Below, one piece after another: positions 2,968-27,362 of a DNA stretch of 64,000 nucleotides. Source of the DNA: Sedimentibacter sp. MB35-C1. GTDB lineage: Bacteria > Bacillota > Clostridia > Tissierellales > Sedimentibacteraceae. Position numbers and translations under genes: made by a program. The stretch is taken from the NCBI RefSeq assembly GCF_030913635.1, contig NZ_CP133188.1, positions 1,674,001 to 1,738,000 on the forward strand, read 5' to 3'. Within the stretch, counting starts at the first letter, position 1; every line of letters begins with the position of its first letter. Under the pieces are notes generated by a model. It saw only the letters and a list, made by a program, of their open reading frames with translations, was not told the origin of the DNA and ran no database searches.

Positions 2968-4041
2968 ATGAAAACATTTTTTAAGAGAGGTACGACATTA
3001 TTGTTAGTAGCTGCCATGTTACTGGCGATGGGGGCCTCTGCATTTGCCGCTGAGACTGAAACAGTTGAAGTGAAAGGCTACAGGGATGATTGGAGCTATA
3101 TGACAGAAGAAGAGATATCTGTTTTGCCGGCTCATTTTTCTGTAACAAATGTTATCAACACATTCGATGTAAAAGAGATTGACGAATTTATAGATGAAGG
3201 ACTTATAGTTAACCCTTCTTCAACTGTTACTCTGCTGGCGGAAGGAGGAGTTATATTTGATATTTATAAATTAACTTCAACGGCTGAAAATACATATGAA
3301 TATTATGATGAGGACAAGCTCCCTCTATTTGGAAAAGCCGTTATTTTTGTTGCTGATGAATCTGGAGAAGTAGATGAAAAAACCGTAGACGTATCAGAGC
3401 TTGAAAACTATGATGCTGAGTTTCCTATGTACCTTCCGGGGTGCAGTGTTGAATTAACAGAACCAGGTGATTACTTTGTTCTTTTCAGAGAAGAGGCAAT
3501 TGCCGGACAGGCCTCAGCTTTTATTAAAGTTGTTGGCGAGTCTGAGACTCAGAATGCACCTGAAGAAGCTACTGAAGCTACTGAAACTGCTGAACCTGAA
3601 ATTCCTGCCAGTGTATCTGCACTGCCTACAAGTTCCAAGGTTCTTGTAAACGGAGAAGAGGTTTCCTTTGAAGCATATAATATAGACGGTAATAATTATT
3701 TCAAGCTCAGAGATCTTGCTACAGCAATAAACGGTACAGAAAAACAATTTGAAGTTGAATGGAACAGTGAAAAAAATGCAATTAATTTAGTTTCGAACAA
3801 ACCGTATACTACAGTCGGAGGAGAGATGTCCAGTGGAAACAGTCAGGAAAAGACAGGAACCCTCAATACCGCAAAAATTTATAAAGATGGTGAAGAAGTT
3901 AAACTTACAGCTTATAATATTAATAATAACAATTATTTTAAATTAAGAGACATTGCACAATCATTCAATATTGGCATAACATGGGACGGTGAAACCATGA
4001 CAATAGGAATAGATACAACAATAGACTATATAGCAGAGTAA
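2968..4041 (+). CDS. Secreted protein with C-terminal copper-amine-oxidase-like stalk domains
   Basis: The 357-residue product opens with a textbook signal peptide (basic MKTFFKR, hydrophobic core, cleavage near ASAFAA, about residue 27), so it is exported. The central part (about 30-195) matches nothing I recognise. A Thr/Glu/Ala-rich linker at about 197-215 leads to two related segments, one with AYNIDGNNYFKLRDLA and one with AYNINNNNYFKLRDIA. These are the core of the 'stalk' (copper amine oxidase N-terminal-like) domain used by Gram-positive bacteria for wall or surface display. GAGGAGA lies 8 bases before the ATG. The GH18 protein at 62183-63589 carries a related C-terminal module. The gene ends at a terminator shared with convergent rsgA. 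Surface location is well supported; function is unknown. Confidence 0.8.
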   Translation: MKTFFKRGTTLLLVAAMLLAMGASAFAAETETVEVKGYRDDWSYMTEEEISVLPAHFSVTNVINTFDVKEIDEFIDEGLIVNPSSTVTLLAEGGVIFDIYKLTSTAENTYEYYDEDKLPLFGKAVIFVADESGEVDEKTVDVSELENYDAEFPMYLPGCSVELTEPGDYFVLFREEAIAGQASAFIKVVGESETQNAPEEATEATETAEPEIPASVSALPTSSKVLVNGEEVSFEAYNIDGNNYFKLRDLATAINGTEKQFEVEWNSEKNAINLVSNKPYTTVGGEMSSGNSQEKTGTLNTAKIYKDGEEVKLTAYNINNNNYFKLRDIAQSFNIGITWDGETMTIGIDTTIDYIAE

Positions 4042-4054
4042 TATAAGTAAATAA

Positions 4055-4085
4055 AAATTCCGGAAACATGTTCCGGAATTTTTCA
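4055..4085. terminator. Bidirectional terminator between the stalk-domain gene and rsgA
   Basis: A perfect stem (AATTCCGGAA at 4056-4065, TTCCGGAATT at 4071-4080) has A-rich and T-rich flanks, so it can end transcription from both convergent genes. Confidence 0.85.
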
Positions 4086-5150
4086 TTTTTTTTTGTTTTT
4101 TATATATTTTTTGGCGTTTTTTATTCCGCCGAAATCTTTAAACATTTCCTTGACCTTTTTTTCTTCTATTTGCTTTGACGTCAGGCCCTCATAGTTTGCT
4201 TCTTTTTTTAACTTGAAATAGTTTAAAAGTCTGCTTTCCGAAAGCGTGCCGTTTTTTATTGCTTCTTTTACGGCACATCCCGGTTCCTTTGTATGTGTGC
4301 AGTCATTAAACCTGCAGCCGGTGGAAAGTTCGTCAATATCCGAAAATGTTTTGGACAAATCAGTGCTTTCAATTCCCAGTTCTCTCATTCCGGGTGTATC
4401 TATTACGGCACCGCCTGACTTAAGAGCAATCAGCTCTCTTTTTGTGGTTGTATGCCTGCCTTTATCATCTCCGCGTATGCCTTGCGTAGCAAATAGATTT
4501 TCCCCTGCAAGTTTATTGACAAGTGTAGACTTTCCGACGCCTGAAGAGCCTATAAAGGCAACAGTCATTCCATTTTTTATACATGCTCTTACTGCTGCTA
4601 ATCCGTCCTCGGTCATACTTGATGTTACTATTATATCCACACCCAGCGCCACTGTTTCCAGCTGGGGTAATATATCTCCCAAATTATCGCACAGGTCTGA
4701 TTTTGTTAGGACTACTACAGGCGTTGCGCCTCCATCCCATGCAACTCCTATATATCGTTCGAGTCTTCGTAGATTGAAATCATTATTAAGACTCATACAT
4801 ATAAAGACTAAATCGATATTTGCTGCAACGACCTGACTGTCGCAGGACGTGCCGGCAGCTTTTCTTGTAAATGAACTTTTCCTTGTTAGAACATGGTGTA
4901 TGATTGAATTACCGTCATCAATTTCATCGAGCATAACAAAATCTCCTACGGCAGGATAATCAGAAATACTAAAAGCATTATGACGAAATTTTCCTGAAAT
5001 TTGTGCTTTTTTTTCTCCTTTTTCTGTAATTACTCTGTACAGTCCCTTGTCTTGAGAAGCAATTCTACCAACAGTTAAGTTCTCATGCATACGAGACTCA
5101 TTAACAAACCTTTCGTTGAGTCCGTAATCTTCCATATTAATTTTATTCAA
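4083..5150 (-). CDS. rsgA: Ribosome small-subunit biogenesis GTPase RsgA
   Basis: RsgA (YjeQ) is a circularly permuted GTPase that checks late 30S subunit maturation. The 355-residue product shows the permuted order: an N-terminal OB-fold region (about 25-95), then G4 TKSD (149-152), G1 GSSGVGKST (201-209) and G3 DTPG (251-254). A C-terminal zinc knuckle follows with C279, C284, H286 and C292. It is somewhat longer than the usual ~295-residue RsgA, with extra sequence at both ends, the C-terminal one lysine-rich. The start is TTG at 5150 (complement), with AGGAGG five bases upstream in the transcript. It stands alone, not in the prpC-prkC operon where rsgA often sits in Firmicutes, so it may be a second copy. 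Confidence 0.93.
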   Translation of the reverse strand: MNKINMEDYGLNERFVNESRMHENLTVGRIASQDKGLYRVITEKGEKKAQISGKFRHNAFSISDYPAVGDFVMLDEIDDGNSIIHHVLTRKSSFTRKAAGTSCDSQVVAANIDLVFICMSLNNDFNLRRLERYIGVAWDGGATPVVVLTKSDLCDNLGDILPQLETVALGVDIIVTSSMTEDGLAAVRACIKNGMTVAFIGSSGVGKSTLVNKLAGENLFATQGIRGDDKGRHTTTKRELIALKSGGAVIDTPGMRELGIESTDLSKTFSDIDELSTGCRFNDCTHTKEPGCAVKEAIKNGTLSESRLLNYFKLKKEANYEGLTSKQIEEKKVKEMFKDFGGIKNAKKYIKNKKK

Positions 5151-5422
5151 TGCATCCTCCTGAAATGTAAGTGATTATACGGAGGCATAGGATTATAGTT
5201 TATATACCTCCGGGTTTTCTGTTGAATTTTCTATTAATGCAAAAATCATAATGCAACACTCCCTTCTTGTGAGATATTTGTAAGAATATTTTATAATAAA
5301 ACGTAATTAAATTCAATAAAATCCTTGAAAAAAGCATAAATTGTTTATAAACACTCCTTTAGCAGTTTAAAATAAAAATTGCAGGGTACTTATAACATAA
5401 AAAGAGGATGGGAGCTGGAATT

Positions 5423-7006
5423 TTGAAAACTAAGTGCTGTTCAAGACATTTGTGCAAACGTATGATAAATTATTTTTTTCGCAACCAATCAATTGCTATT
5501 GTGCTGAAGTATGGGATATTTGGATCGCTTTGGGTTGTTTTGTCAGATTCTGTTCTTGAAGTTTTTGCTGGTGATTTCGAAATATATAAAAATTTACAGA
5601 CATATAAAGGCTGGATTTTTATCTTTCTTACAATGATAATAGTGTATATTTTAATAAATAAAAGGGAGAAAAGAATAATAAATGCAACAGGAGAATCATC
5701 CAAGGCGATAAGAGAATTGAGGCATATGGCGTATTATGACACTTTGACTGGATTGCCAAACAGAGCTATGTTTGTAAGCAAAATTAAAAATCTTGTCAGT
5801 AGTTCAAGGCAGAAGTTTGCGATTGCATTTTTAGATATAGATAACTTTAAATACATAAATGATACATTGGGACATTACATAGGAGATGATTTCCTAAAAT
5901 TTATGGCACACAAAATGTCAAAAGAAATAAAGGCACCGGATATGGTAGCAAGACTTGGAGGAGATGAATTTGCAATATTAATAAGAAGTTTTGAAACCAA
6001 GGATATATTGCTTAACAGATTGGAAAATATAAAAAACAGTATAGGAAACACTTGGAATTCAGGCAGCAGGGAATTTTATATATCCATGAGCATAGGTATT
6101 GCGGTATATCCAGATGACGGCTACGATTTTGACACGTTGCTTAAGCATTCTGACATAGCAATGTATGCAGCAAAAAAAGAAGGAAAAAACAAGATGTTTT
6201 TTTATGAGGAAGATATTCATTACGAGACGATATGGCATATACAGATGGCAAATAAATTGCAAAAGGGCTTGGATTGCAATGAATTTGAACTGAATTACCA
6301 ACCTCAGGTACAGCTGAGCACAGGAGATATAATAGGCACAGAAGCACTTGTAAGGTGGAATCACCCTCAGGAAGGTTATATTTCTCCGGCGGATTTTATT
6401 CCAGTAGCAGAAATAACAGGACAGATATATGAGTTGGAGAGGCGCATAATAAAGAATGTATTAATTCAGAAGAAAAAATGGGAAGAACAGGGCCTGAATG
6501 ATTTAGAATTATCACTAAACCTGTCCGGAAAATCACTTATAAGTAATTCAAGTTTCAGACAAATAGAAGAAATATTTTCTGACTACGATGTGGACTATTC
6601 AAATATTGTTATAGAAATAACCGAAACAGCGGCAATTACACATATTGATACAGCAATAGAAAGATTAAATATATTAAAAGCAAAAGGTTTAAAAATTGCA
6701 TTGGACGATTTTGGAACAGGATATTCTTCCCTGACATATTTAAGGAGGCTTCCGATTGATATTGTTAAGCTTGATAAGAGTTATATAGGAAACGGTGATA
6801 AAAAAGACATATCAATAATTAAATTTATAGTATCTCTTGCGCATGACTTGGGTATCAGAGTTATAGCAGAAGGGATAGAAACAATTGAACAGTATGATTA
6901 TCTTAGAACTATAGAATGTGAATGCGGGCAAGGGTACTATTTAGGGCGCCCGATGTATATTGATGAACTAAATGAGCTGTTGACGGAGAAATTCGAGCAA
7001 AAATAA
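5423..7006 (+). CDS. Membrane-anchored GGDEF-EAL protein (c-di-GMP turnover)
   Basis: Two N-terminal membrane helices (about 24-44 and 63-80) anchor a GGDEF domain followed by an EAL domain. The GGDEF motif is intact, so cyclase activity is possible, but the inhibitory I-site arginine is replaced (KAPD instead of RxxD). The EAL domain keeps the residues expected of an active c-di-GMP phosphodiesterase: EALVRW, the Asn of LNLSG, the Glu of EITET, DDFGTGYSS, KLDKSYI, AEGIET and GQGYYLGRP. I chose TTG at 5423 because GGAG lies 8 bases before it; ATG at 5408 is also in frame but its purine tract touches the start codon. The gene is monocistronic. Which activity dominates cannot be read from sequence. 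Confidence 0.92.
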   Translation: MKTKCCSRHLCKRMINYFFRNQSIAIVLKYGIFGSLWVVLSDSVLEVFAGDFEIYKNLQTYKGWIFIFLTMIIVYILINKREKRIINATGESSKAIRELRHMAYYDTLTGLPNRAMFVSKIKNLVSSSRQKFAIAFLDIDNFKYINDTLGHYIGDDFLKFMAHKMSKEIKAPDMVARLGGDEFAILIRSFETKDILLNRLENIKNSIGNTWNSGSREFYISMSIGIAVYPDDGYDFDTLLKHSDIAMYAAKKEGKNKMFFYEEDIHYETIWHIQMANKLQKGLDCNEFELNYQPQVQLSTGDIIGTEALVRWNHPQEGYISPADFIPVAEITGQIYELERRIIKNVLIQKKKWEEQGLNDLELSLNLSGKSLISNSSFRQIEEIFSDYDVDYSNIVIEITETAAITHIDTAIERLNILKAKGLKIALDDFGTGYSSLTYLRRLPIDIVKLDKSYIGNGDKKDISIIKFIVSLAHDLGIRVIAEGIETIEQYDYLRTIECECGQGYYLGRPMYIDELNELLTEKFEQK

Positions 7007-7084
7007 AGTGGTTTGATTTTATGTAATATTTAAAAAAATTTGCAATTATGATACAATGTAGTAAAACTAAATTAGGAGATTAAA

Positions 7085-7345
7085 TTGAAAACAGAAAATT
7101 ATAAATTTTTCCAAAACACCAAATGCGAATATTTTCCGTGCCATAAAACTTCCGATGAGGAAAGCTTTAACTGTCTTTTTTGCTATTGTCCATTGTACAT
7201 GCTTAAAGATGAATGTGGAGGAAATTATGTTGTGAATCATGGCATAAAGGACTGCACAAACTGCCTTGTCCCACATTCGAAAGGAAGCTATGAAAGGATT
7301 ATGGCAAAGATGAAGGAGGTTATTAAAAGAGGAAGTGATTTTTAA
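7085..7345 (+). CDS. Cysteine-rich small-domain protein
   Basis: This 86-residue protein has eight cysteines in an ordered pattern: one near residue 14, another at 19, a CLFCYC block, then DEC and CTNCL, with conserved histidines. It resembles the 'cysteine-rich small domain' family, which probably binds metal or an Fe-S centre and sometimes occurs near cobalamin genes. No cobalamin gene is seen here. The TTG start has AGGAG six bases upstream. It precedes the two RMD1-family genes in the same direction, about 100 bp away. The role is unknown. Confidence 0.75.
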   Translation: MKTENYKFFQNTKCEYFPCHKTSDEESFNCLFCYCPLYMLKDECGGNYVVNHGIKDCTNCLVPHSKGSYERIMAKMKEVIKRGSDF

Positions 7346-7451
7346 TTGTTATTAACACTGTTAGAAAAGATAGAAACTGATTGGCAATAATTAAATATAT
7401 GATTAATAAGGCTAAAATTACATATGATATAAAAAATGAGCGGTGGTTATT

Positions 7452-8276
7452 ATGAATGATTTGAGCTTTAAAACTTATGCAGTAACTAATGAAATAGAAC
7501 TTAATAAGATAGCTGTTGAATGTAATATAAAGAAAAAATATACATGGGAAGAACCGCTTATGCTTCAGGACTCAGTTCTGGAAATGGTAATAGGCGAGCA
7601 AGCCTATGAAAATGAAATGATTTTAGTTTTTTCATTCGGTAGCATAGTATTTATTAACTCCGATAAAAAGCACACCGAAATTTTTATGAAATATATTAAA
7701 AAAATTAAGACTGATATAGACATTGAGCATTATGAAAAATTTAAGGATGACTATGCTCTGCATTTAACTGAGGGAGAAGAATTAGAATGCACAGATGAAT
7801 ATGTTCAGGTTCCGCATAATGAGCTGTTTTATCCTGAGCTTATTGCCATTGTAATTGCAAAATCAGTAGCCTTGGAAAGAATTGAAGAGCAGCTGGGGAA
7901 AATTCTTGACAATATCGAAATTAAAATTGATAATCTGGAAAAGGGAAAGCTGAATATAGGGAATAAAGAGCTTGCTAAGACTATATCTCGAATAGTAAGA
8001 CATGAATACAATACAATTGCATATATAATGATACTTGATAAGCCTGACATTACTTGGATTAACAGCAATGCAGCGCTGTTTTACGAACAGATGTCTGATT
8101 TTTTTGAATTGAACGACAGATATGAAGTAATTAAAAACAAGACGGAAATTCTTAAAAGCATTGTTGATGGGCTCGCTGATATAAGCAGTTCTATACGCGG
8201 ACTCTTTTTAGAATGGATTATAATTATTTTAATAGTTATAGAAGTTATCCTGATGTTTCTTGATTTGTTCAGGTAA
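7452..8276 (+). CDS. RMD1/YagE (DUF155) family membrane protein, first of a tandem pair
   Basis: The product (274 residues) has the DUF155/RMND1 family features: an N-terminal mixed domain with VFSFGSIVFIN, a middle helical region beginning near ALERIEEQLGKILDNIE, and a single C-terminal membrane helix (last ~20 residues). Family members in eukaryotes are mitochondrial inner-membrane proteins involved in mitochondrial translation; the bacterial role is not established. ATG at 7452 is preferred over GTG at 7443 because GCGGTGG sits five bases before it. The stop codon lies 10 bases before the ATG of a clearly homologous gene, so the two are co-transcribed and arose by tandem duplication. Confidence 0.8.
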   Translation: MNDLSFKTYAVTNEIELNKIAVECNIKKKYTWEEPLMLQDSVLEMVIGEQAYENEMILVFSFGSIVFINSDKKHTEIFMKYIKKIKTDIDIEHYEKFKDDYALHLTEGEELECTDEYVQVPHNELFYPELIAIVIAKSVALERIEEQLGKILDNIEIKIDNLEKGKLNIGNKELAKTISRIVRHEYNTIAYIMILDKPDITWINSNAALFYEQMSDFFELNDRYEVIKNKTEILKSIVDGLADISSSIRGLFLEWIIIILIVIEVILMFLDLFR

Positions 8277-8286
8277 GGTGAGGCTT

Positions 8287-9096
8287 ATGAATGTAAAAAT
8301 ACTTAACACATTTAAAGTTGCCGCAAGAATTTCGCTTATTCAGGTTGCTTCACATTTTAATTTTAAGCAGGATGCCGGATGGAAAGAATTTATTAAAATT
8401 GGGAGCAGTGAACTTGAGAAAGTATTTATGTACAGTATCAAGGACAAATATGTTTATTTGTACAAATATGGATGCATAACATTTGTTAATTTTAAGCATC
8501 ATGAAATATTTTATTTTTTTGAGTATCTGTCTAAAATATATGTAGATATTGATAATACGATGCTTTCAAAATTTACTGATACATATGTGTTGAACGTATC
8601 TGATAACAGTATGGTAAATTTGGATGGAGTGGAGGAAAACTACGAATTTAGCGGTATTATGCTTGATATAATCTCAACAGTGCAGGCTAAATCAACAGAA
8701 ATACATAAAATCGAAGCTGAACTTAATAAGGTCCTGGATGATGCAGAAAAGCTGATAAATTACTTAAATAAAGGAAGGCTGATAGCAAATTCGAGAAATG
8801 TTATATCTACTATTGCTCAATGCACCCGGTTTAAATACAGAACTATTGAAAGCGTAAGACTTCTTGACAGACCGCCTGAATTTTCTAAAACAATAGAAAC
8901 TCGAAATCTGTTTAACATTGTAAGTAAATCTTTTGAACTTGATGACAGATATTTGGATATGCTTAACAGGATGGAAGTATTGGACTCTATAACTGAGGAA
9001 TATTTCAACTTTAAGCATAACCAGTCGGAAAAGAGATTACTGATATTTGAAATAATACTTTTGGCATTGTTTCCAATTATGTATTTTATAGGATAG
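8287..9096 (+). CDS. RMD1/YagE (DUF155) family membrane protein, second of a tandem pair
   Basis: This 269-residue protein is a diverged paralogue of the gene immediately upstream. Both share a YGCITFVNFKHHEIF-like strand, a helical segment with IEAELNKVLDDAEKLI, the phrase SFELDDRYLDML and a C-terminal membrane helix (LLIFEIILLALFPIMYFIG). The ATG at 8287 is chosen because GGTGAGG ends three bases before it; reading up to 8260 would overlap the previous gene. The charged middle region suggests a coiled coil, so the two paralogues may form a hetero-oligomer on the membrane. That is inference. Confidence 0.78.
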   Translation: MNVKILNTFKVAARISLIQVASHFNFKQDAGWKEFIKIGSSELEKVFMYSIKDKYVYLYKYGCITFVNFKHHEIFYFFEYLSKIYVDIDNTMLSKFTDTYVLNVSDNSMVNLDGVEENYEFSGIMLDIISTVQAKSTEIHKIEAELNKVLDDAEKLINYLNKGRLIANSRNVISTIAQCTRFKYRTIESVRLLDRPPEFSKTIETRNLFNIVSKSFELDDRYLDMLNRMEVLDSITEEYFNFKHNQSEKRLLIFEIILLALFPIMYFIG

Positions 9097-9129
9097 CTTT
9101 ATTTAATGTTATTACCGTGCCATAAAGGA

Positions 9130-9786
9130 TCATAGGTACAACTTTGCAGCATAGTAAATCAGCAAATGGAGAGGGTACACCGCATAAAACGATATTTGTA
9201 AAAATTTATTTTTCGCCCCGAGAGATCCATTATATTTATAGATAAAAGGTAACGCCAGAAGAGACAGTTGTTGAATAAAAACGGAAGAAAAATTTACTAT
9301 TATCATCACTATTGAGGTAATAATAAATTTTTTTGGTTTTTCTTGATTTCTGGTGAAATAGAAAGTGAGAATATATACAATACCCATTGCATCGTAATCG
9401 ACTTTTAGCAACACCGCCAGAATACAGGCAGATATAATTACCGCAGTGTTGTTGAATTTAAATCTTTCCACCTTATTATCCAATATGTAAATGGTAATTA
9501 AACCTATGAACAAAGTGAAAAATATATTTTGATGAACAAATCCTACCTGATTAAAAAAAGCCAAATCAAAAGGTATTTCAGAAATCAGTGCAAATAATAA
9601 AAGTCTCTGTGCATATTTTTTGAAATTGCTTGTGTGAAAATAGCCTTCTACTAACAGAAAGCAATAAATAGGAAAAGCAATTCTACCTATCATTCTAAAA
9701 ATCATCATATCTTCTTGAAAGATTGCTCCGTAATGATCTATAATCATAGTAACAAGGGCAATTATTTTTAATGCAAATACATTCAT
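9130..9786 (-). CDS. TraX-family integral membrane protein
   Basis: The 218-residue product is almost entirely membrane helices and begins with the TraX-type sequence ALKIIALVTMIIDHYG, followed by IGRIAFPIYCFLLVEGY and a polar AQRLLLFALISEIPFDL segment. TraX of the F plasmid is needed for N-terminal acetylation of pilin; chromosomal homologues in Firmicutes are widespread without any conjugation genes and belong to the acyltransferase-3-like membrane proteins. No pilin or conjugation gene is nearby. GGAGA precedes the ATG by five bases. It converges on the DUF155 pair. Family assignment is good, the substrate is unknown. Confidence 0.85.
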   Translation of the reverse strand: MNVFALKIIALVTMIIDHYGAIFQEDMMIFRMIGRIAFPIYCFLLVEGYFHTSNFKKYAQRLLLFALISEIPFDLAFFNQVGFVHQNIFFTLFIGLITIYILDNKVERFKFNNTAVIISACILAVLLKVDYDAMGIVYILTFYFTRNQEKPKKFIITSIVMIIVNFSSVFIQQLSLLALPFIYKYNGSLGAKNKFLQISFYAVYPLHLLIYYAAKLYL

Positions 9787-9939
9787 ATCATTCTCCGAAA
9801 ATAAATATAACTAATTATATAAGGGATATTCAATTAATACAAGAGTTTAAACGATAATGTAATAATTCAATAATAATAACAAAACTATTTTAATTTGTGA
9901 TATAATAATAGCGCATAATATTTTATCTGAGAGGTACAT

Positions 9940-15441: not shown

Positions 15442-16350
15442 TTGGGAGATGACTGTCAAAAAATCAGAGAGGCAGTTACAAATTTGAAAAAACTGTACAG
15501 TTTCAGAGGGCCGCTTCATTTTACAGATTTTTCAAACTTAAGTTCAATTATAAGCATTGGGTATTTGTGCGGAAGGGATTTGTGCCATGCAAATCACATA
15601 GAATTTTACGATGCTGCACATGAAGAAAAAATCAAAGATGTGCCGGGAAAAGTAAGGGGATGTGCAAGATTTTATTATACGGAGAAAGCTAACTATGAGG
15701 TTATGCAAAAATTAGATATTCCCGTGTATCTTTTGTTTGATGAAGAAATTATATGCCATGACCTGGCAATTTATACAGATGGAAATGCCGACTACAAAAA
15801 TACTTCTTATGGAACAGATTATAATTTTTTTAATTATGATATTGACTGGGAAACCGTTTTTGATAAAAGATGCGTAGATAAATTCTTAAAAGGAAAAGTT
15901 AATGAATTGTTTAGCATCAGAAAGCAGGCTGAGCTTCTTATTGATGAGCCTGTATCGTTGAGAAGGCTGAAAAATGTTATATTTAGAAGTCCGACAGAAT
16001 ACAGAAGGGCATGCAATCTTTTCGGAAAGAATAATATGTATCGCGTTGAACCTGATATGTTTTTTCATGACAGCAATTATGTAAAAGACTACAATATTGT
16101 GTATAACAGCCAAAGCGACAGAAATGTGTTCATATTTCATTTCTGTACGTGTAATCCGGTGAAGAATGATGACAGGCATGAATACAGACTGTATGATATA
16201 AACGACAGGCCGCTTCGTGCAGTAAAAGTGAATTATCTGGGAACAGATAAAACGGATTTTCATGTAGAGGTAGACTGCTTGCCATGTCTTCCGGTAAAAT
16301 TCAAGTTCTGGTTTTACGGGGTGTTGTGCATAGAGGAAATAATAGGATAA
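15442..16350 (+). CDS. DarT-like (DUF4433) ADP-ribosyltransferase domain protein with extra C-terminal domain
   Basis: The first ~185 of 302 residues resemble the DarT/DUF4433 fold. I see LHFTDFSNLSSIISIG (H26-F-T, the NAD-binding His motif), ARFYYTEKANYEVM in place of the family's FYF-PR-P-M loop, YTDGNA (111-116), and RKQAELLI, where E164 matches the catalytic glutamate position of the RxAEFLV motif. DarT enzymes ADP-ribosylate thymidine in DNA and normally pair with the antitoxin DarG. No macrodomain gene is adjacent. Residues ~200-302 form an additional Cys/His-containing domain (FHFCTCNPV, VDCLPCLPVKFKF) that I do not recognise. The TTG start has GGAGGG upstream. The assignment rests on motifs and needs a profile search; DNA as target is inference. 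Confidence 0.62.
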   Translation: MGDDCQKIREAVTNLKKLYSFRGPLHFTDFSNLSSIISIGYLCGRDLCHANHIEFYDAAHEEKIKDVPGKVRGCARFYYTEKANYEVMQKLDIPVYLLFDEEIICHDLAIYTDGNADYKNTSYGTDYNFFNYDIDWETVFDKRCVDKFLKGKVNELFSIRKQAELLIDEPVSLRRLKNVIFRSPTEYRRACNLFGKNNMYRVEPDMFFHDSNYVKDYNIVYNSQSDRNVFIFHFCTCNPVKNDDRHEYRLYDINDRPLRAVKVNYLGTDKTDFHVEVDCLPCLPVKFKFWFYGVLCIEEIIG

Positions 16351-17808: not shown

Positions 17809-18531
17809 ATGAGATTAAATTTATTAATAACGGCTATAACACCAGGGCTTGCCCTGGGCCTTATAATTTACTGGTTTGACAGGCATGACAGGGAACCTTT
17901 GAGGGTGCTGATGAAAGTGTTTTTTATGGGAGTTGTTTCGGTTGTTCCAACTGTACTCATAGAAAATCTGCTTTCCTCATTCAATTTTTTCCCCGGTATT
18001 TTAGGTGCTGCATATACTGCTTTTATAATTGCTGGATTAACCGAAGAATTTATGAAAAGGAAAGTTGTACTTAAGTATGTTTATTATAACCCCGTATTTG
18101 ATGAGAAGTTGGACGGAATAGTTTATTGTGTAATGTCTGCTCTTGGGTTTGCAACAATAGAAAACATAATGTATGTTGTATTTAGGTTTTCAGATATTGA
18201 GTCCATAGGGTTATATAGAGCTGTTTTATCTGTGCCGGCTCATATGCTTTTCGCCATAACTATGGGGTACTACCTGTCTCTTGCCAAGTTTTCTGCAACA
18301 CCGGAGAACAGCAGATATTATTTTAAGAAATCTCTTACGGTTCCTGTTGTGCTTCATGGAATTTTTGATTTTATTTTGATGTCAGGGATAGATCTTTTGA
18401 TGTTGCTATTTATTCCGTTCGTAATATATATGTGGGTAACAAATCTCCGAAAGCTGAATGTGTATTACAATGATTCGAAAAACAAGGAGTCTGGAACATC
18501 AAACAGTTTTCATCACGACGAATTTCAATGA
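17809..18531 (+). CDS. prsW: PrsW-family intramembrane metalloprotease
   Basis: A polytopic membrane protein of 240 residues with the PrsW landmarks: IIAGLTEEFMKRKVV (E79-E80), GFATIENIMYV (E118-N119), VPAHMLFA (H145) and VPVVLHGIFDF. In Bacillus, PrsW performs site-1 cleavage of the anti-sigma factor RsiW. No anti-sigma gene is nearby. ATG at 17809 is chosen because AAAGGAAA lies four bases before it; the in-frame ATG at 17794 lacks a site. The gene follows a SprT-like metalloprotein and ends at a nested hairpin. Confidence 0.85.
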   Translation: MRLNLLITAITPGLALGLIIYWFDRHDREPLRVLMKVFFMGVVSVVPTVLIENLLSSFNFFPGILGAAYTAFIIAGLTEEFMKRKVVLKYVYYNPVFDEKLDGIVYCVMSALGFATIENIMYVVFRFSDIESIGLYRAVLSVPAHMLFAITMGYYLSLAKFSATPENSRYYFKKSLTVPVVLHGIFDFILMSGIDLLMLLFIPFVIYMWVTNLRKLNVYYNDSKNKESGTSNSFHHDEFQ

Positions 18532-18552
18532 ATTAATAAAGAAGGTAACCCT

Positions 18553-18594
18553 TTAACCGCAGTCCCATAGGGACATTTTATAAACTGCGGTTAA
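18553..18594. repeat. Nested inverted repeat at the edge of the accessory region
   Basis: TTAACCGCAGT (18553-18563) pairs perfectly with ACTGCGGTTAA (18584-18594), and inside it GTCCC and GGGAC (18562-18574) form a second small hairpin. There is no T tract. It sits 21 bases after prsW and just before the recombinase remnant, so it could be a transcription end or part of an attachment region. Confidence 0.6.
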
Positions 18595-18608
18595 TCGGGC
18601 GGTATATT

Positions 18609-18639
18609 GGCAGACAGTGATTTTCACTGTCTGCCTTTT
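18609..18639 (+). terminator. Strong terminator between prsW and the recombinase remnant
   Basis: GGCAGACAGTGA (18609-18620) pairs with TCACTGTCTGCC (18624-18635), followed by TTTT. It can end transcription from prsW. Confidence 0.85.
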
Positions 18640-18645
18640 GCCGTT

Positions 18646-19226
<581 letters not shown>

Positions 19227-19300
19227 TTACTCCTTTCCGACAAACTGAATACGGTAAACACATCATACCGTAACAGTTTGTACAAGTCTATCGAAAGCCG

Positions 19301-19558
19301 TTATTTCTTTTTAATATCTTTTTCGTCATCAATTAATCTGATTAACTCTTTGCTCGGCGTTGATGATGGCTCTGCTTGGAAGATGGATTTCACATAAAAG
19401 ATTTTGCCGTCAATCATCATTCTTCGTTCTGTAAAAAATTCATTTTCATTTCGAGTAACCGCTGTATCCCTGTAAATTATTGTAACGGTATTTCCTTTTT
19501 CAAAAACTAAAGGCTTAAATTCAATGAAACTTAGCGTTACAATATACTTTTATATTTT
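19301..19558 (-). pseudogene. Remnant of a small mobile-element gene
   Basis: Upstream of the recombinase, on the same strand, an open frame reads FIEFKPLVFEKGNTVTIIYR then MMIDGKIFYVKSIFQAEPS and ends KELIRLIDDEKDIKKK before TAA at 19301. No start codon with a ribosome site is visible, and the frame is closed just upstream. The layout (small protein ending in LIRLIDxE next to a TnpX-type recombinase) resembles TnpW-like accessory proteins of Tn4451-type elements, but the match is from memory and weak. Confidence 0.4.
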
Positions 19559-19634
19559 AGTTTGATATAATGGTAATATTAGGATTCAAAAACAATTGCC
19601 AAGCTGATATGGCAGTTTGTAGTGGAGGTAGACG

Positions 19635-20324
19635 ATGAATATAACTGTAACAGTTTTATTAAGCATTTTAACAAGTCTTGTAGCTACAATAATATGGGTA
19701 ATATTTACAAAATTATATGATTTCGAAAGTAGAAAAAATATAGATTATTTACTTGAAATGGCTATAAATTGTTCACGACAATTTGAATATGCTATTAAAT
19801 ACAATGAGTATCAAATAGCTTTAACTCAAGCGGATAGAATTATAGATCTATTAAAAGAAATACGTGAAAATATTAGACCATTTACTTTTCTTTCATTAAA
19901 AAAGAAATTTATTTTAACGCTATTATATAACTCTTTATACATTATTGATATTTTTAAGAATTTAACTGTTGGGTATTCTGGGCATCAGGAAGAAATAGCA
20001 AGATGTGAACGTTTTGATAGAAAATATCTTTATAATATTCAATTAGATGAAGAATATTCTGTACCATTTTTATCCTTTTCACTTGAAATAATTCAAGATT
20101 TAAATCGTAGACTTTCAGTTAAAAAAGCGCTAAGTAACAATTTAAGTATGCGGTATTGTAGCAACAAAAAAGATATTTTAATATCAATGATATTTGCCAT
20201 TACAACAAAAAGTGAAAGCAAATATTGCAAATTTGACTTAAGAAAAGATATTTTTTCATATAAAGAATATGAAGAATATATTGATAAAAAGGTTTCAGTA
20301 GAGAAACCAACCAATGAACAATAA
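19635..20324 (+). CDS. Unknown membrane-anchored protein (accessory region)
   Basis: A 229-residue protein that I do not recognise. An N-terminal hydrophobic helix (about residues 4-25, TVTVLLSILTSLVATIIWVI) anchors a charged, mostly helical cytoplasmic part with a further hydrophobic patch at about 95-115. GTGGAGG precedes the ATG. The start of a DNA methyltransferase-like stub overlaps its 3' end, so it was once translationally coupled to a restriction-modification gene. Base composition is more AT-rich than the flanking housekeeping genes. A defence-associated role is possible but only by position. Confidence 0.6.
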   Translation: MNITVTVLLSILTSLVATIIWVIFTKLYDFESRKNIDYLLEMAINCSRQFEYAIKYNEYQIALTQADRIIDLLKEIRENIRPFTFLSLKKKFILTLLYNSLYIIDIFKNLTVGYSGHQEEIARCERFDRKYLYNIQLDEEYSVPFLSFSLEIIQDLNRRLSVKKALSNNLSMRYCSNKKDILISMIFAITTKSESKYCKFDLRKDIFSYKEYEEYIDKKVSVEKPTNEQ

Positions 20325-20406
20325 ACTTGACGGTCTCTCCTTAAACCTTGAACTTACAAATAAAGAAAAACTAAATTCTCTATTTCCCAAATGTTTTACA
20401 GAGTAA
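20314..20406 (+). pseudogene. N-terminal stub of a type III-like DNA methyltransferase (Mod)
   Basis: A 30-codon frame starts with ATG at 20314, overlapping the end of the preceding gene, and stops at TAA 20404. Its translation contains KLDGLSLNLELTNKEKLNSL followed by FPKCFTE. This matches the start of type III Mod proteins, which typically open with LDGLSL...ENIxKLKELFPExFTEGK. The rest of the gene is gone. I read it as a deletion remnant of a restriction-modification locus. The match is from memory of the family and short. Confidence 0.55.
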
Positions 20407-20451
20407 ACACTTAATATTGCTTGCTAAAAAGATATTCAAGGAGGTCGTTTA

Positions 20452-21384
20452 GTGAATAATAAAAAAGTAAAAAAATATAAGTACACCGGTTACTGTTGGG
20501 CACTTAGTATTATTGGTTTATTTTCTTTTTTGACAACAGGATTTTATATTAATGCTTTAGTAATCAATTCTAATTCACAAAACTGGCTAAGTGTGCTTGT
20601 GGGCATATTGTGGGGACTATGCTTCAGCATTTTAACTGCTTTTTTAATAAAATGTAGCGACGATAAACGATATGATAACGCTCAAAAAAGCTTTGTGATA
20701 AATTTACATGACTATTATTTAAAGGATTTCCGTCAAGCTTTGAAAAATTATGCTATGTATTATGTAAATGCTTTTAAGCCTAGAAATGAATATCTTCTTT
20801 TTAGAGATATTCAAAGTGGTAATCGGATAGATGTTGATGCACTCATCTATAATTTTGCAGCATTACAGCATATAAAAGACAATGTGCCAAAAGCTAAAGG
20901 ATGGCCATCCAGTCAAGCTGAATGGATTGTGGAGAAATTAAAAGATTTATGCATGGTGACACATACACATTATTACTTACATTATTATTATGAACTTTGT
21001 GAAGAATCCAATAAAGTTGTTAGTATTGCAAAGATTGAAAATGAAAAATACGATTACCCCATTTTCTCTGAAGACGAGTTGATGTATTTAGAAAGATATG
21101 AGGATGCGGTTTATTATTATAATATGTCTAATGATTTACAGGAAAAAAATCCGCAAAAATTTGATGATTTTAATTTTCAGCACATGTTTCAATGGTTTCG
21201 ACACATAAATGATCAATTAGCGTTATTTAATATTGATTTAGTCCCTATGCAGTTCTCGCATCCCACTCAAGAAGAAAGAAAAATATTAGATGGAGATAGA
21301 AACCATTTTAGGGCTGTTGCGAAATCTGGTGAAGAGGCTGCCGAAAGCATTATCGAAGAATATAAAACGCATAATTTAGGGTAA
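20452..21384 (+). CDS. Unknown protein with two N-terminal membrane helices (accessory region)
   Basis: A 310-residue protein. Helices at about residues 15-37 and 45-66 form a membrane hairpin; the remaining ~240 residues are cytoplasmic, helical and rich in Tyr and His (HTHYYLHYYYELCEESNK), with no motif I can name. The GTG start has AGGAGG seven bases upstream. It lies in the decayed mobile region, after the methyltransferase stub and before broken ICE-type genes. Its intact frame and good start contrast with its neighbours, so it may be retained cargo. Confidence 0.62.
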   Translation: MNNKKVKKYKYTGYCWALSIIGLFSFLTTGFYINALVINSNSQNWLSVLVGILWGLCFSILTAFLIKCSDDKRYDNAQKSFVINLHDYYLKDFRQALKNYAMYYVNAFKPRNEYLLFRDIQSGNRIDVDALIYNFAALQHIKDNVPKAKGWPSSQAEWIVEKLKDLCMVTHTHYYLHYYYELCEESNKVVSIAKIENEKYDYPIFSEDELMYLERYEDAVYYYNMSNDLQEKNPQKFDDFNFQHMFQWFRHINDQLALFNIDLVPMQFSHPTQEERKILDGDRNHFRAVAKSGEEAAESIIEEYKTHNLG

Positions 21385-21498
21385 CGTTGGTGTTAGCATA
21401 AAGAAACTTTGAAAATGCTAAGGGCGTCCATTTTGGGAACACCCTTTAGTTGTTGATAATTTGTGCCATACAAAAGGATAGAACTATTCGTTACACCC

Positions 21499-22005
21499 TC
21501 AATCCAAGCTACCCACAATTTTGTTAATATCACCATCGCTTTCGCCAGTGATTGCACCGCCGCCTATAATACCAATTTTATTGCCGTTCTCATACATACC
21601 CTCAACGTAGCTACCATGGTTTGGTTCATCATTATCTTCAATCCAACCAAATCCGAGAAAGTAAACTTGCTTTTGACCGTTAACAATCCGTGTATCGCCC
21701 ATTTTCAGTGTACAGGTTTTAGATGGGGTAGGTGGAGGTGGCTTTGTAGCCGTTTGTGTGGGAGGAGTTGGGGTGTTGGTCGATTCTTCTTTTTCTATTG
21801 GCTGAGGTGGAGAGGTTTTTGCTAATTGGTTCGATTGTTAGTAGAGATGGGGTGTTATCCCTATATGATACTGCAACCTGCGATACAGGACGAATGTGGG
21901 CGTTGGTGTCGATTGTTCTTATTTTGGTACACCTTGCTGTATCAGCAGAGAAGAAGTAAGCAATACGATTGCTAATCCAGTAATTTTAGTCTTTCTCCGT
22001 CACCG
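21499..22005 (-). pseudogene. Broken ICE-type small gene (DUF6550-like)
   Basis: The C-terminal frame (21702-21499) encodes VNGQKQVYFLGFGWIEDN followed by YENGNKIGIIGGG and ends DGDINKIVGSLD, a pattern I associate with DUF6550 proteins of clostridial conjugative elements. Upstream, a proline/threonine-rich linker (PPTQTATKPPPPTPSK) and a hydrophobic N-terminus (ITGLAIVLLTSSLLIQQG) lie in other frames, with at least two frameshifts and stops between. The gene is therefore inactive. Family name from memory, moderate confidence; decay is visible directly. Confidence 0.6.
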
Positions 22006-22154
22006 TATTCTCCTTTCGGCACAAAAAATTTACCACAGTCATTGAGATTTTCTTTCTCAAAACTGTGGCCATTCTTGAAATGTAATTCGTTTGAAAGTTC
22101 CACACCAAGTTTAAATCCTTGAATAAAATTTTTTGCATTAACAAGGTGCGCACT
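21972..22154 (-). pseudogene. Fragment of another small mobile-element gene
   Basis: An open stretch without a usable start reads NAKNFIQGFKLGVELSNEL, then HFKNGHSFEKENLNDCGKFF and stops at 21972, overlapping the start of the broken gene downstream. Overlapping small genes of this kind are typical of ICE modules. I cannot assign a family with confidence. Confidence 0.35.
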
Positions 22155-22175
22155 TCATTTTACAACCTATCACAA

Positions 22176-24753
22176 CTAAATATTTCTGAATGGGATACTC
22201 GATGGTTTTACATCTATCTTTGCAATACCATTTAATTTTAAATAATCGTCAAGCCCTTGTTTTGCAACATTTTCATCCAAAGTAGGGCTAAAACGTATTT
22301 CCTCTATGACTCGATTATCGGAATCAGTCAGACCATAGATTGGTATTGTAATATAAGGTATTACTACCTTGCCATTAGTTCTAAAATTCGGATAATAATT
22401 TACGATTCCATTATAATTGCAAATCCTTTGATCGGTGATTCTATCATCGCTTTCATATATTTTATTATTTGCCCAAAATTGAGGGATAAACGCATATCTA
22501 TATTCATGTTCATACTCAAATCCTGTATGTTTTACAAATAATGAAATAAGTCTAATATGCGTAAATACAGTTTTCTTAATAATTTCATCTTTTAGTTTAT
22601 TATTTACTTTTAGATAGGTTTTACCACTTTTATATATAGAAGAAATCAAGTGTTTTATTGGTTTATACTGCTTTTTATTATTTTTTTCTTCATTGTCGAT
22701 ATAAATAACTTTGCCCATTATGTACGTACCCGGGTTCACAAAACTATTTTTAAACTTATCTTTATCTACTTTTATATTATATCCGTCATCATTAGAATAA
22801 TTTTTCCACATAGGAAGAGAATCTTTTTCAGTAGTCATAGAAAGAATATATACATCTTTCTTTTCGTTGTTTATTTGTTCTTTTAAACTATTTATGAAAG
22901 ATTCTTTATAATTAAGCTTTTCCAATACCTTAAAAATATATGATGTTTCACTTGGATCATTTAAAAAATCACTTTTGGTGACCCAAAACTCTTTCTTGTC
23001 TAAAATTCCTTTTAGACCTGCTATACTCGTATAATGATACATTTTGTTCTTATCTTCATCAGTCTTATTATTATCATTGTCAGAAATGTTTTTAAAAAAG
23101 TTATATAAGAAAGGCGAAAAGTGATTAAATTGAAAAATAGATTCGTTAAATTTTGTTACAGCTTCCCAATAATTTTTCTCAGCATCCTTTTTTAATTCTT
23201 CAATGTTTTCAGATTCTAAGTCTATCAAATATTTATATGCCGTGCCAATATAAATATAATCAGATTCCGATGTGGGAGTTATTTTAACTACTTTATTAAA
23301 ACAACTTTTTGCAAAATCACATTCATCTAAATTCGAAAGAACTATTCCAACTTGCAATAATATATTTGAATCATCTAAATTTTGTACATCTATTTTTTCT
23401 AAATGTTCTTTTGCTTTATGTTCATGGTGCAAAAAATATTCACTCATACCTTTTATGTAAAGTTTGTTAGTATCAAAATTTGAAATATCGAGTTTAGATA
23501 TTTCTTCAAAGAATTTTTGTGCAGTTTTATTATCCAGTCCATTTAATTGCAGCCCTGCATTATATAAAAGATTAATATTACTTACATTTAATTTTAAGAT
23601 ATTTTCGTAGCATTCAATTGCGTCTTTCTTTTTTCCTAAAACTTTTAATGCAAATGCTTTTATAATAAGAATTCTCATTCTTGCCATTGCTTGTATCACT
23701 TAAATTTATTATTTTTTGAAAACAACAAATAGCAAAATCATGTTTATTAAGTGATAATAGTCGACAAGCGATAATATTTAGCGAAAAAATGTTATTTATG
23801 TCTTTTATATTTTCCTTAATAGCTTTATTAAAATTATCCATACCATCTTTAGGCTTTCCTAAAATCATTGAACATGTTGCTTTTATATATAGTTCTTGAG
23901 GGCTATATTTAGGTTTTTGGATGGATACAATTTTTTGATACAATTTTGTTGAATATAATATTTTGTTACAGTCTAAAAAGTCGGCTAAATCATATAAGTT
24001 TATTAAATCATTTGTTTGCAATTTAAGTATTTTTTCAATGCATTCTACAGTTTCATTAGGTTTACGCAATATATAAAATAACTTTGTAATACCGCATAAA
24101 ATTACAATATCAGTAGGATTAAATTTTAATATTTGCGACAGACATTTATATGTCGCTTCATAATCATGTAAAATTGAAAGCTTATTTGCTGCATTATATA
24201 GACGTTGGATATTTTTATCTGTTTCTACTATTTCTTTGAAATACTTTATTGCTAATGAGTCTATAAACAAGCAATAGGCAGCATTACCTTTACAATACTT
24301 ATCTTCAACATTGTTATCTTGTAAGTCCAAAATTTTATTATAATATTCAGAGGCAATATTTTTTTTACTTATCTTTTCTAGTTTAAATGCCATACCATGT
24401 AATTTGATTATATCTTCTGTTAGATTTAATACTTTATTAAAGCAGTCAATTGCCTTTGATTGGTAGCCATTATTACATAAATATATCCCAATATCAAATA
24501 TAATATTTACATTTGTTGTTCCTATTTCCAATATCTTTTTAAAGCATCGAATTGCTTTGGCTGTTTCCCACATCGAATAGATATGACTCATACCTTTATA
24601 ATACAGTTCATCAACATTATCAAAATTGATTTGTATTTCCGTTATTCTTCTACATATATCTCTTGCTTTATCAATTTCTCCTGAATTGTACAGTTGCATT
24701 GCTAATTCAAATACGCCTTTTATATCCGTTTTATCTACATCACTACCGTCCAT
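22176..24753 (-). pseudogene. TPR-repeat protein with C-terminal DUF2971 domain, split by a frameshift
   Basis: Two overlapping frames make one gene of about 858 codons. The 5' frame (24753-23614, AGGAGGAA before its ATG) is a run of tetratricopeptide repeats (GEIDKARDICRRI, AKAIRCFKKILEIG, YQSKAIDCFNKVLNL, NETVECIEKILKLQ). It goes out of frame at an AAAA run at 23658-23661. Dropping one A joins ENSYYK to AFALKVLGKKKDAIECYENI, restoring the repeat register in the second frame (to 22176). The second part ends in a DUF2971-like domain: YHYTSIAGLKGILDKKEFWV then SDFLNDPSET, with PMWKNYSNDDG and the C-terminal EYEHEYRYAFIP. It is very AT-rich and lies in the mobile region. It is a recent pseudogene or a sequencing error. 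Confidence 0.78.
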
Positions 24754-25070
24754 AACCTCTTCCTCCTAGCACTTGAAATTCATCTAAATATAATTATACA
24801 TCTATAGACCATATTTTTTCTATCTGAGTTAATGAAAATTTCAATAAAGCATTTTAAATTGGTATTTACAAACTATGTTAGAGCAGCATATATAAAAGAA
24901 ATTGAAAACTTTTCAATTTAGCATTGTACAACTAAATATTCGATACAGTGCACAAAAAGGAAACAACCTTGAAGTCTGTATGTTGACCTCAAGGTTGTTT
25001 TCCGTACTCAGTTTGCGTTTTCTATTTTATCTCTATGGTACTTCCTCTTTAAAGGATTACCTTTTTTAAC
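24754..25070. other. Intergenic region at the right edge of the accessory region
   Basis: About 317 bases, AT-rich. It holds the promoter side of the TPR gene and the terminator of the molybdenum hydroxylase operon (24957-25003). I saw no attachment-site repeat matching the 18.5-kb edge. Confidence 0.5.
24954..25003 (-). terminator. Terminator of the molybdenum hydroxylase operon
   Basis: GGAAACAACCTT (24959-24970) pairs with AAGGTTGTTTTCC (24991-25003, one bulged T). In the minus-strand transcript the stem is followed by five T. Confidence 0.85.
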
Positions 25071-27362
25071 TTAATTTTGTCCGTTATTAATCATTTTCGT
25101 TAGTATTTTCTCGCCTGTTATAGGTAGACTTCGCATATTTATGTTAGTTGCATTGTATACGGCATTTGCGATTGCAGGTGCCGGGGTGTTAATTACAAGT
25201 TCACCTATTGACTTTGCACCAAATGGTCCCGTAGGTTCATAGCTGGATTCAAAATCAACTCTTATTTTTCCCACATCCATCCTTGAAGGAATTTTATACT
25301 GCATAAATGAGTCATTTAGCATTCTTCCATTTTCGTCATACTTAACATCTTCATACAATGTCATTCCCATTCCTTGGACTATTCCGCCTTCAGCCTGAAT
25401 TCTAGCAAGGTTTGGGTTTATAACAGTTCCGCAGTCAACTACTCCCACATAGTCAATTATGTCTATTTTACCTGTAAGCTTATCCAGCTCGATTTCAACC
25501 AGACCTGCCATAAATGGAGGAGGTGATGTAGGTGAAAAATGAGATCTTGTAGCAGTAAGGTAGGCGTTTGTGCCCACGTAGCTGGCATATCCTATTTCAG
25601 CGAGAGATATAGTCTTTCCGGTGCCTGCGCACACTACTTGTTTCCCGTCAAACTCCGCATCCTCAGGCTTGCATCCGAGAAGTCTTGCACCTTCAGATAG
25701 TATTTTGTCTCTTAGCACCTCGCATGTTTTAACAACAGCCATTCCCGTAATATAAGTTGTGCTTGAAGCATAGGAGCCTGTGTCGTATGGAGATAAATCA
25801 GTGTCAACGCCGTGAACGACAATATTGTCATAATCTGTGTCTAGGCAATCGGCGGCAATTTGTGCCAGAATTGTATCACACCCTGTTCCCATATCGGTGG
25901 CCCCTATTAAAAGCGTATAGAAGCCTTCATCATTCAATCGGATCTCAACAGCTCCCACATCACATGATGAAATTCCCGATCCCTGCATTGCAACAGCACA
26001 GCCGACAGAACGTACTTTATCATTTCCTATATCTTTAGAGGGAAATTTTTCGTCCCAGTTTATCATTTCTTTAGCTTTTAACATACACTTGTCAAGAGTG
26101 CAGCTTTTTAACTCTTCATTATAGTAAGTGGGCATAATTTTGCCTACATTTTTCTGAGTAAGCATGTTGTTCATTCTCAAGACGGTAGGGTCCATATTAA
26201 GTTTGGCGGCCAATTCATTAACAGCAGATTCCAAAGCAAAGAAGCCTTGAGTTGCGCCGTATCCTCTGAATGCACCCGCTCCCATGGTGTTTGAGTAAAC
26301 AACCTCATTTTCAAATTTATACGATGCTGCATTGTATATGGTCATTGCCTTGTGACCGGATAATCCGACAGTTGTCGGGCCGTGATCTCCGTAAGCACCT
26401 GCATTCCATAATGAAAACATGTGAATAGCTTTGATTATTCCATTTTCGTCAGCTCCGAGCCTAATCTTCATCTCTGCTTCGTGACGTGGGCTTCCGTTGG
26501 TAAAGCTCTCTTTTCGTGAATAAACCATTTTAGCCGGTTTACCTGTTTTCCAAGTTACAATTGCAGGGAAAATTTCGCTTACAATCGTCTGCTTTGCACC
26601 GAACCCTCCGCCGATTCTCGGTTTAATAACTCGAATTTTAGATTTTGGAATCTGAAGAGCGTTTGACAGTATACGTCTTACGTGGAACGGTACCTGTGTT
26701 GAAGTTATAACAGTAAGTCTTCCGTAGGTGTCAATGCTTGTTTGAGTTCTAAAGGTTTCCATCATAGACTGATTGTTTGCTTTTGTAGTGTATGTCTCTT
26801 CAATTATGTGAGCACAGTTTTTAAAATCTTTTTCAACATCTCCCACTTCCATTGCATCAGATGAGCAGATGTTTCTCTTATTGTCAGCACCAACGTCGCA
26901 TAGAGTTTTAAAGTCGTCTTCAGGATGAACAATGATCTTGTTGTCAATTGCTGTTCTGTAATCCAGCAATGCTTCTAAAACTTCATATTTAACTTTGATT
27001 AATCCAAGAGCCTTGTCCACTGATTTTTCATCCAAACCTGCTACTATTGCCACAGGATCTCCGACACATCTCAGCCTTTTATCGAGAATAAGTCTGTCAT
27101 ACGGGCTTGGCTCGGGATAAGTCTGTCCAGCTGTGGTAAATCTTGATTTAGGAACATCCTCATAGGTTAGTATGCACTCGATTCCAGGTACTTTTTTCGC
27201 TTTTTCAGTATTTATTTCATTGATAATTGCATGTGAATGAGGGCTCCTCAGAAGTTTTACAACAAGATTGCAACCTTGAGTAACATCATCTGTGTATACC
27301 GGTTTGCCTGTTACCAATGCAATGGAATCTTTTTTTCTGACACCTTTATTAACAAACTTCAT
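25071..27362 (-). CDS. Xanthine dehydrogenase-family molybdopterin-binding subunit
   Basis: The large subunit (763 residues) of a molybdenum hydroxylase holds the Mo-pterin cofactor and hydroxylates a heterocycle or aldehyde. The N-terminal domain (GKPVYTDDV, LKLLRSPHSHA-like) leads into the Mo domains: GGGFGAKQ (Mo-co binding), GAFRGYGATQGFFALES, GSYASSTTYITG, and near the C-terminus GPFGAKSIGELVINTPAPAI, whose Glu occupies the catalytic glutamate position. Its start overlaps the 2Fe-2S gene by 14 bases. It is third in the operon. No XdhC-type maturation gene is in the window. The substrate (purine, nicotinate or other) cannot be read from sequence. Confidence 0.92.
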   Translation of the reverse strand: MKFVNKGVRKKDSIALVTGKPVYTDDVTQGCNLVVKLLRSPHSHAIINEINTEKAKKVPGIECILTYEDVPKSRFTTAGQTYPEPSPYDRLILDKRLRCVGDPVAIVAGLDEKSVDKALGLIKVKYEVLEALLDYRTAIDNKIIVHPEDDFKTLCDVGADNKRNICSSDAMEVGDVEKDFKNCAHIIEETYTTKANNQSMMETFRTQTSIDTYGRLTVITSTQVPFHVRRILSNALQIPKSKIRVIKPRIGGGFGAKQTIVSEIFPAIVTWKTGKPAKMVYSRKESFTNGSPRHEAEMKIRLGADENGIIKAIHMFSLWNAGAYGDHGPTTVGLSGHKAMTIYNAASYKFENEVVYSNTMGAGAFRGYGATQGFFALESAVNELAAKLNMDPTVLRMNNMLTQKNVGKIMPTYYNEELKSCTLDKCMLKAKEMINWDEKFPSKDIGNDKVRSVGCAVAMQGSGISSCDVGAVEIRLNDEGFYTLLIGATDMGTGCDTILAQIAADCLDTDYDNIVVHGVDTDLSPYDTGSYASSTTYITGMAVVKTCEVLRDKILSEGARLLGCKPEDAEFDGKQVVCAGTGKTISLAEIGYASYVGTNAYLTATRSHFSPTSPPPFMAGLVEIELDKLTGKIDIIDYVGVVDCGTVINPNLARIQAEGGIVQGMGMTLYEDVKYDENGRMLNDSFMQYKIPSRMDVGKIRVDFESSYEPTGPFGAKSIGELVINTPAPAIANAVYNATNINMRSLPITGEKILTKMINNGQN

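Follow-up and report, generated by a model that had tools for sequence, protein, structure and literature searches.

The window analysed here is a 64,000-nucleotide stretch of the genome of Sedimentibacter sp. MB35-C1, which comprises 3.62 Mb in a single contig (window coordinates G000:C1:1674001-1738000). Three frames follow one another on its forward strand:

19635..20324, + strand: ORF1, an orphan of 229 aa with one membrane helix predicted near the N-terminus
20314..20406, + strand: truncated start of a type III mod gene (the stub), 30 codons long and encoding the N-terminus of the DNA methyltransferase
20452..21384, + strand: ORF2, an orphan of 310 aa with two membrane helices predicted near the N-terminus

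ORF1 starts at an ATG preceded by GTGGAGGT, and its hydropathy profile places a single membrane helix inside residues 1-28. ORF2 starts at a GTG preceded by AAGGAGGT and is predicted to have two membrane helices, at about residues 15-38 and 44-70. The stub overlaps the last 11 nt of ORF1, which terminates within the mod start, and only 45 nt separate the stub from ORF2. At 24.1% GC, ORF1 is markedly AT-rich and ORF2 slightly so (31.1%), the window as a whole having 34.3%. Resampling the surrounding 6.5-kb island 200 times produced no stop-to-stop frame above 154 residues, the longest per copy having a median of 95, so that frames of 229 and 310 codons lie beyond chance expectation. The initial annotation had described a 30-codon frame beginning inside the end of the first gene, flanked by intact membrane-anchored proteins of unknown family. 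This description holds, as all three frames are present at the positions listed above, both outer frames carry hydropathy-predicted helices and family libraries return chance-level matches only.

Homology searches suggest that ORF1 and ORF2 are new orphan membrane proteins with no credible relative. Among 249 genomes of the order, ORF1 retrieved only itself and ORF2 no credible relative, its match in G161 (E 6.3e-4, 19.8 bits) being interrupted by four internal stops. Among 391 genomes of the class, weak matches (E 0.001-0.01, below 19 bits) occurred in 14 other genomes for ORF1, with internal stops in 11, and in five for ORF2, with stops in two; these were judged as sets rather than locus by locus and taken as chance. 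The two samples share at least 19 genomes and together hold about 620 distinct ones. Searches of genome contigs and viral contigs gave no confirmed relative of either protein, a weak negative given that exact 8-residue patterns were needed, and tblastn found none in plasmids or phages. Neither protein has a PADLOC match. Family matches remained at chance level for ORF1 (Pfam E 6, PHROGs E 0.075) and for ORF2 (Pfam E 0.24, NCBIfam E 0.13, PHROGs E 0.043), as did a sequence search of the PDB (ORF1 E 1; ORF2 E 0.037 to chain I73R and E 6.7 to BioY). Single-sequence AlphaFold models were poor, with mean pLDDT values of 43.5 (ORF1) and 41.1 (ORF2). The two proteins do not resemble each other above chance, their score being attained by 78 of 300 shuffles, and no title in the literature searched concerns these genes.

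The frame between them is very probably the N-terminus of a type III Mod protein. It matches the PADLOC model MTase_III at profile positions 2-30 of 621 (E 0.0091), which is the N-terminal register. Against our own profile of 19 Mod N-termini from genomes of the same order (stub excluded; hand-picked from the Mod class whose LFP...TE-like start resembles the stub, some being near-duplicates; eight Mods of the other class and L034 lie outside it), the stub ranked first among 2,387 window frame fragments of at least 15 residues, with 24.8 bits and E 1.9e-6. The runner-up in the window scored 7.3 bits and the best fragment in 20 resampled windows 10.4. The match extends from the Mod start to the last residue of the stub, ending within the hallmark LFPxxxTE. 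The earlier proposal that this frame reads like the first residues of a type III Mod, for which a profile search failing to link it to Mod had been named as a refutation, is thus borne out by both profiles.

It is very improbable that the frame arose by chance or encodes a short regulatory peptide merely resembling Mod. Such a reading could draw on the shortness of the frame, on its going unreported by Pfam and NCBIfam, on the modest PADLOC E value of 0.0091 and on the choice of the 19 N-termini by hand from a stub-like Mod class. It is largely refuted by the 24.8 bits of the stub against at most 10.4 in 20 resampled windows; moreover, the match begins at the Mod start and extends to the stop, and the PADLOC match is independent of the hand choice. 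Searches with the 30 residues by tblastn (plasmids, phages) and phmmer (PDB) returned nothing, which carries little weight for so short a query.

The stub resembles type III Mods of the EcoP15I class in its 30 N-terminal residues, which are in register and include LFPxxxTE, and differs from them in being cut before the catalytic motifs, with no res adjoining. The available text on EcoP15I describes the N-terminal helices of the NTD as part of the dimer interface (PMC4490356). The DPPY motif, the SAM-binding motifs and the target recognition domain are absent from the locus: codon 31 of the stub frame is a stop, nothing of Mod was seen downstream of it and ORF2 matches no methyltransferase model. 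That a stub of 30 residues should lack DPPY follows from a longer truncated Mod, L034, whose match ends with MIYID near profile position 123, just ahead of the expected DPPY. Lacking the catalytic motifs, the stub would therefore not methylate DNA, and no modification or restriction activity would be left at the locus. The insertion described below holds no res-sized frame, and no such match was found among the frames scanned; a scan of the whole genome for the endonuclease domain of type III Res came back empty but carries no information, its controls staying silent too. Elsewhere in the host genome, a second gene matches MTase_III (G000:C1:3240102-3241211, positions 76-458, E 1.1e-49, in a 770-aa frame). 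L034 itself (7876-8331, G169:C125) is another type III mod from the same genus, apparently truncated at MIYID within its contig rather than at a contig end.

All three frames lie in a segment that is absent from a sister genome, delimited as follows:

18551..18555, no strand: left junction repeat CTTTA (5 bp), in the loop of the terminator-like hairpin of the empty site; read directly
18556..25051, no strand: insertion of about 6.5 kb, putative decayed integrative mobilizable element, CIME-like; absent from the sister G180
25047..25051, no strand: right junction repeat CTTTA (5 bp); read directly

In the congeneric genome G180 the flanking genes are the same and the insertion is missing. Its locus L068 aligns at 1-2338 with window 27383-25047 (95.8% identity) and at 2334-9790 with window 18555-11132 (94.9%), and its empty site, AAGAAGGTAACCCTTTACAAGGATTACCTTTTTT, is a terminator-like hairpin. 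As CTTTA stands at both junctions, the inserted DNA is 18556-25051, give or take the repeat. By eye, one neighbour is PrsW-like and the other of the xanthine-dehydrogenase type. In G171, metabolic-looking genes (again by eye) lie between the same neighbours, and an integration hotspot is not evident there. DNA matches to the insertion occur in 6 of the 25 genomes of the genus, including that of the window itself, and in none of the other 19. As DNA, the whole insertion has no match in plasmids or phages, and Rfam reports nothing at gathering scores over 18400-25200. Window 18538-18555 and positions 7108-7125 of L084, from the related element in G172, both lie in an AAGGTA(A/G)C.CTT-like sequence (by eye), perhaps reflecting a terminator-type target preference.

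The relatives of the insertion have the gene content of an integrative mobilizable element (IME) of the serine-recombinase/relaxase type. The relative in G174 (C277) matches the insertion at the left end, in the recombinase and small gene (72%) and, over 44 bp at 79.5% identity (E 0.001), at the right end. Its gene order runs from a large serine recombinase (Resolvase 5.3e-20, Recombinase 5.1e-21, DUF4368 1.3e-18) through a small gene, a MobA/VirD2 relaxase (6.4e-36), a NikA-like gene (3.1e-18), AAA_25 (5.6e-25) and a DUF6076 gene (2.7e-18, scored on the G172 copy) to the cargo. G172:C22 matches the left end, recombinase and small gene of the insertion at 91-95%, and window 19518-19630 at 90%, 3.8 kb further on. 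Searches for the DUF6076 gene located it in 3 of 239 genomes sampled from the order and in 4 of 221 from the class, and in no viral contigs or plasmids; its family name did not occur in the literature searched. By gene content, these relatives are similar to Tn4451-like IMEs and to IME_Rho_tet, for which the available text lists a relaxase, mobC and a serine recombinase (PMC12904643). The likeness comprises the serine recombinase with its Resolvase, Recombinase, Zn_ribbon_recom and DUF4368 domains, the MobA/VirD2 relaxase, the NikA/MobC-like protein, a short direct end repeat and variable cargo. What sets the window copy apart is the loss of most of its recombinase and of the transfer genes; the relatives differ in carrying DUF6076. 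In the available text of a survey of IMEs, very short direct repeats are described for serine-recombinase IMEs of Firmicutes, and IMEs carrying restriction-modification (R-M) systems of type II, not type III, are reported (PMC5704250).

Outside the three frames, the insertion in the window consists of element ends, gene remnants and a second cargo region:

18556..18590, no strand: element left end (AGTCCCATAGGGACATTTTATAAA), an imperfect inverted repeat with the right end; common to G172:C22 and G174:C277
18646..19223, - strand: large serine recombinase remnant (Pfam Resolvase E 5.6e-12); N-terminal resolvase part, frame break near 19110
19301..19517, - strand: remnant of the small gene that in the relatives lies between recombinase and relaxase; part of a 91% match to G172:C22:8282-9146
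19518..19634, + strand: element leader with a TATAAT-like sequence and a ribosome-binding site, feeding ORF1; 90% identity to G172:C22:12924-13038
21499..21702, - strand: DUF6550 gene remnant (E 1.6e-6 to Pfam PF20187, at positions 152-190 of its 190)
22176..23699, - strand: TPR and DUF2971 frame (Pfam DUF2971 E 2.8e-10; PADLOC PDC-S31 E 1.8e-8)
23614..24753, - strand: TPR frame (Pfam TPR_2 E 4.9e-16), overlapping the preceding one by 86 nt in another frame
24998..25046, no strand: element right end; its counterpart in G174:C277 is 79.5% identical over 44 bp (E 0.001)

The inverted similarity of the two ends reaches a score attained by 3 of 500 shuffles. The recombinase remnant changes frame after about residue 37 and has lost most of the remaining protein, keeping its last ten or so residues. 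Compared with G172, about 1 kb is gone between two copies of TGCCGATTC, where G172 positions 7108-7251 and 8282-9146 join. A further tract of about 3.8 kb, reaching from the small gene to DUF6076 inclusive, is gone, with a few shared bases at the junction, and the relaxase, NikA-like, AAA and DUF6076 genes of the relatives are lacking. A functional IME has an intact recombinase and a relaxase; here the recombinase is truncated and frame-broken and the relaxase is absent. Both ends and the junction repeats are kept, the integration and transfer genes are lost and an empty site is present in G180, a combination that corresponds to a CIME, which the available text of PMC5704250 describes as a decayed form keeping its ends without integration and transfer genes. 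ORF1, the stub and ORF2 are accordingly cargo of a decayed IME, a point that the initial annotation had missed. The two TPR frames are probably the second (22176-23699) and first (23614-24753) halves of one gene broken by a frame change; the split of this gene (22176-24753, - strand) lies near an A/T run around 23630. The DUF2971 half of this second cargo gene of the same insertion matches the PADLOC candidate-defence family PDC-S31, which would lend the cargo a defence flavour and is no demonstration of one.

The leader that feeds ORF1 in the window lies behind the DUF6076 gene in G172. There, the same leader and ribosome-binding site precede a different protein (L084 13044-13182, G172:C22) that begins MENVIDRIL... 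and has a hydrophobic N-terminus by eye; the contig ends 139 nt, or 46 residues, into this first cargo gene. This arrangement suggests that the first cargo gene is exchanged behind a constant leader. Searching viral contigs for the leader pattern gave no match.

For the position of ORF1 relative to mod, we read the upstream frame, chosen mechanically as the longest of at least 50 aa, at 28 of 33 Mod loci (L015, L021, L022, L024 and L032 were dropped for a missing start, as duplicates or as missed by the pattern). It ends between -11 and +3 nt from the Mod start in 12 of the 28 and overlaps mod in five of these 12, L038 having the same -11 overlap as ORF1 and the stub. It is a predicted membrane protein at two loci (L011 and L037) and lacks a predicted helix at 22; at the remaining four, none lies within 250 nt. 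L011 and L037 thus provide a precedent for a membrane protein encoded immediately in front of mod, but ORF1 still falls in no family that we have seen. The L011 (G155) and L037 (relative G223) products are 70% identical, contain a GDAL..YGS.LAFIGTVLLGALALWQN-like sequence and lie 1-3 nt upstream of mod; the L011 product has no Pfam match. Like ORF1, this two-helix protein is predicted to be membrane-anchored, has about 230 aa and adjoins mod; unlike a homologue, the L011 protein shows no similarity above shuffled controls to ORF1 (score attained by 143 of 300 shuffles) or to ORF2 (54 of 300). The first cargo protein of G172 was considered as a member of the G155/G223 upstream-of-mod family and not retained (alignment A1, 0 of 5 genomes, in a comparison run without a positive control). 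Neither that protein nor the G155/G223 upstream protein was found in plasmids.

Taken together, the locus is a decayed IME that probably once carried a type III R-M operon and in which two orphan membrane proteins remain. In the simplest reading, an IME would have inserted into the terminator-like hairpin after the split from G180 and then suffered deletions; the alternative for the empty site is a precise loss in the sister. The cargo would have included an R-M operon in the order ORF1, mod and, presumably, res, with translation of mod coupled to that of ORF1 through the end of ORF1 inside the mod start. A further deletion, which we infer solely from the stop and the missing remainder, would have taken out res and all of mod beyond codon 30 and moved ORF2, an independent cargo gene, close behind. 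ORF1 and ORF2 are still readable and would be made as membrane-anchored proteins. We regard this sequence of events as a whole, from IME cargo through loss of the ORF1-mod-(res) operon to the leftover membrane proteins, as likely. The collapsed R-M locus proposed by the initial annotation therefore stands in part: a collapsed R-M operon is the best reading of the stub, although res and the rest of mod enter only by inference. For the two membrane proteins, whose recurrence beside mod/res had been proposed as a test, no homologue turned up, and their part as accessory or defence proteins stays putative.

Several observations count against the operon. ORF1 is unrelated to the L011 membrane protein upstream of mod, 22 of the 28 Mod loci have an upstream frame devoid of predicted helices, and neither mod nor res turned up in this slot of any related element in a comparison that covered G172, G174, G166 and G378 and left out G309, G266 and G353; downstream of the DUF6076 gene, G174, G166 and G378 differ by eye. 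The chances are about even that ORF1 is a membrane-anchored accessory of the lost operon, now partnerless. It is rather unlikely, though to be taken seriously, that ORF1 never belonged to an R-M operon and that an illegitimate junction formed during decay placed the 5' end of mod under its last codons; this concerns one step of the preferred reading only, so that the two are not mutually exclusive. At least two gaps with short shared bases relative to G172, the lack of ORF1 relatives beside mod and the different first cargo gene behind the same leader in G172 all speak for such a junction, yet the mod frame begins at its own ATG with nothing lost in front, and the 11-nt overlap is within the range of other mod starts, L038 included.

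Alternatively, ORF1 and ORF2 could be a functional defence module of uncharacterised type, pairing a sensor and an effector at the membrane, beside which the mod fragment is incidental. Amid broken neighbours, both frames have stayed intact and have good ribosome-binding sites, they sit in a mobile element near a second cargo gene matching PDC-S31, and a membrane helix joined to a helical domain is a common effector layout. We nevertheless consider such a module improbable in view of the missing PADLOC match, the chance-level results in Pfam, NCBIfam and PHROGs, the want of any homologue to give context and the lack of likeness between the two proteins (78 of 300 shuffles). Bolder still, and a long shot, is that ORF1 and ORF2 are the first members of two families of membrane-anchored partners or effectors of type III R-M systems on clostridial IMEs, encoded in a slot whose shared leader drives interchangeable first genes, and that they may still work without Mod. 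Type III systems are usually described as Mod and Res alone; if the membrane proteins were R-M partners, a membrane arm would be added to them. On current evidence, the preferred reading of a decayed IME amounts mainly to ordinary genome decay and two orphan genes. With its empty site and 95%-identical flanks, the locus is nonetheless a well-placed example of an IME losing its transfer genes along with a restriction gene while orphan cargo stays open.

Elsewhere in the window, a DarT domain (ssDNA ADP-ribosyltransferase; Pfam E 5.8e-16) occurs in the 302-aa product encoded at 15442-16350 (+ strand). Two adjoining genes of similar length at 7443-9096 (+ strand), whose products look alike by eye and share a C-terminal hydrophobic stretch, are possibly a tandem duplication.
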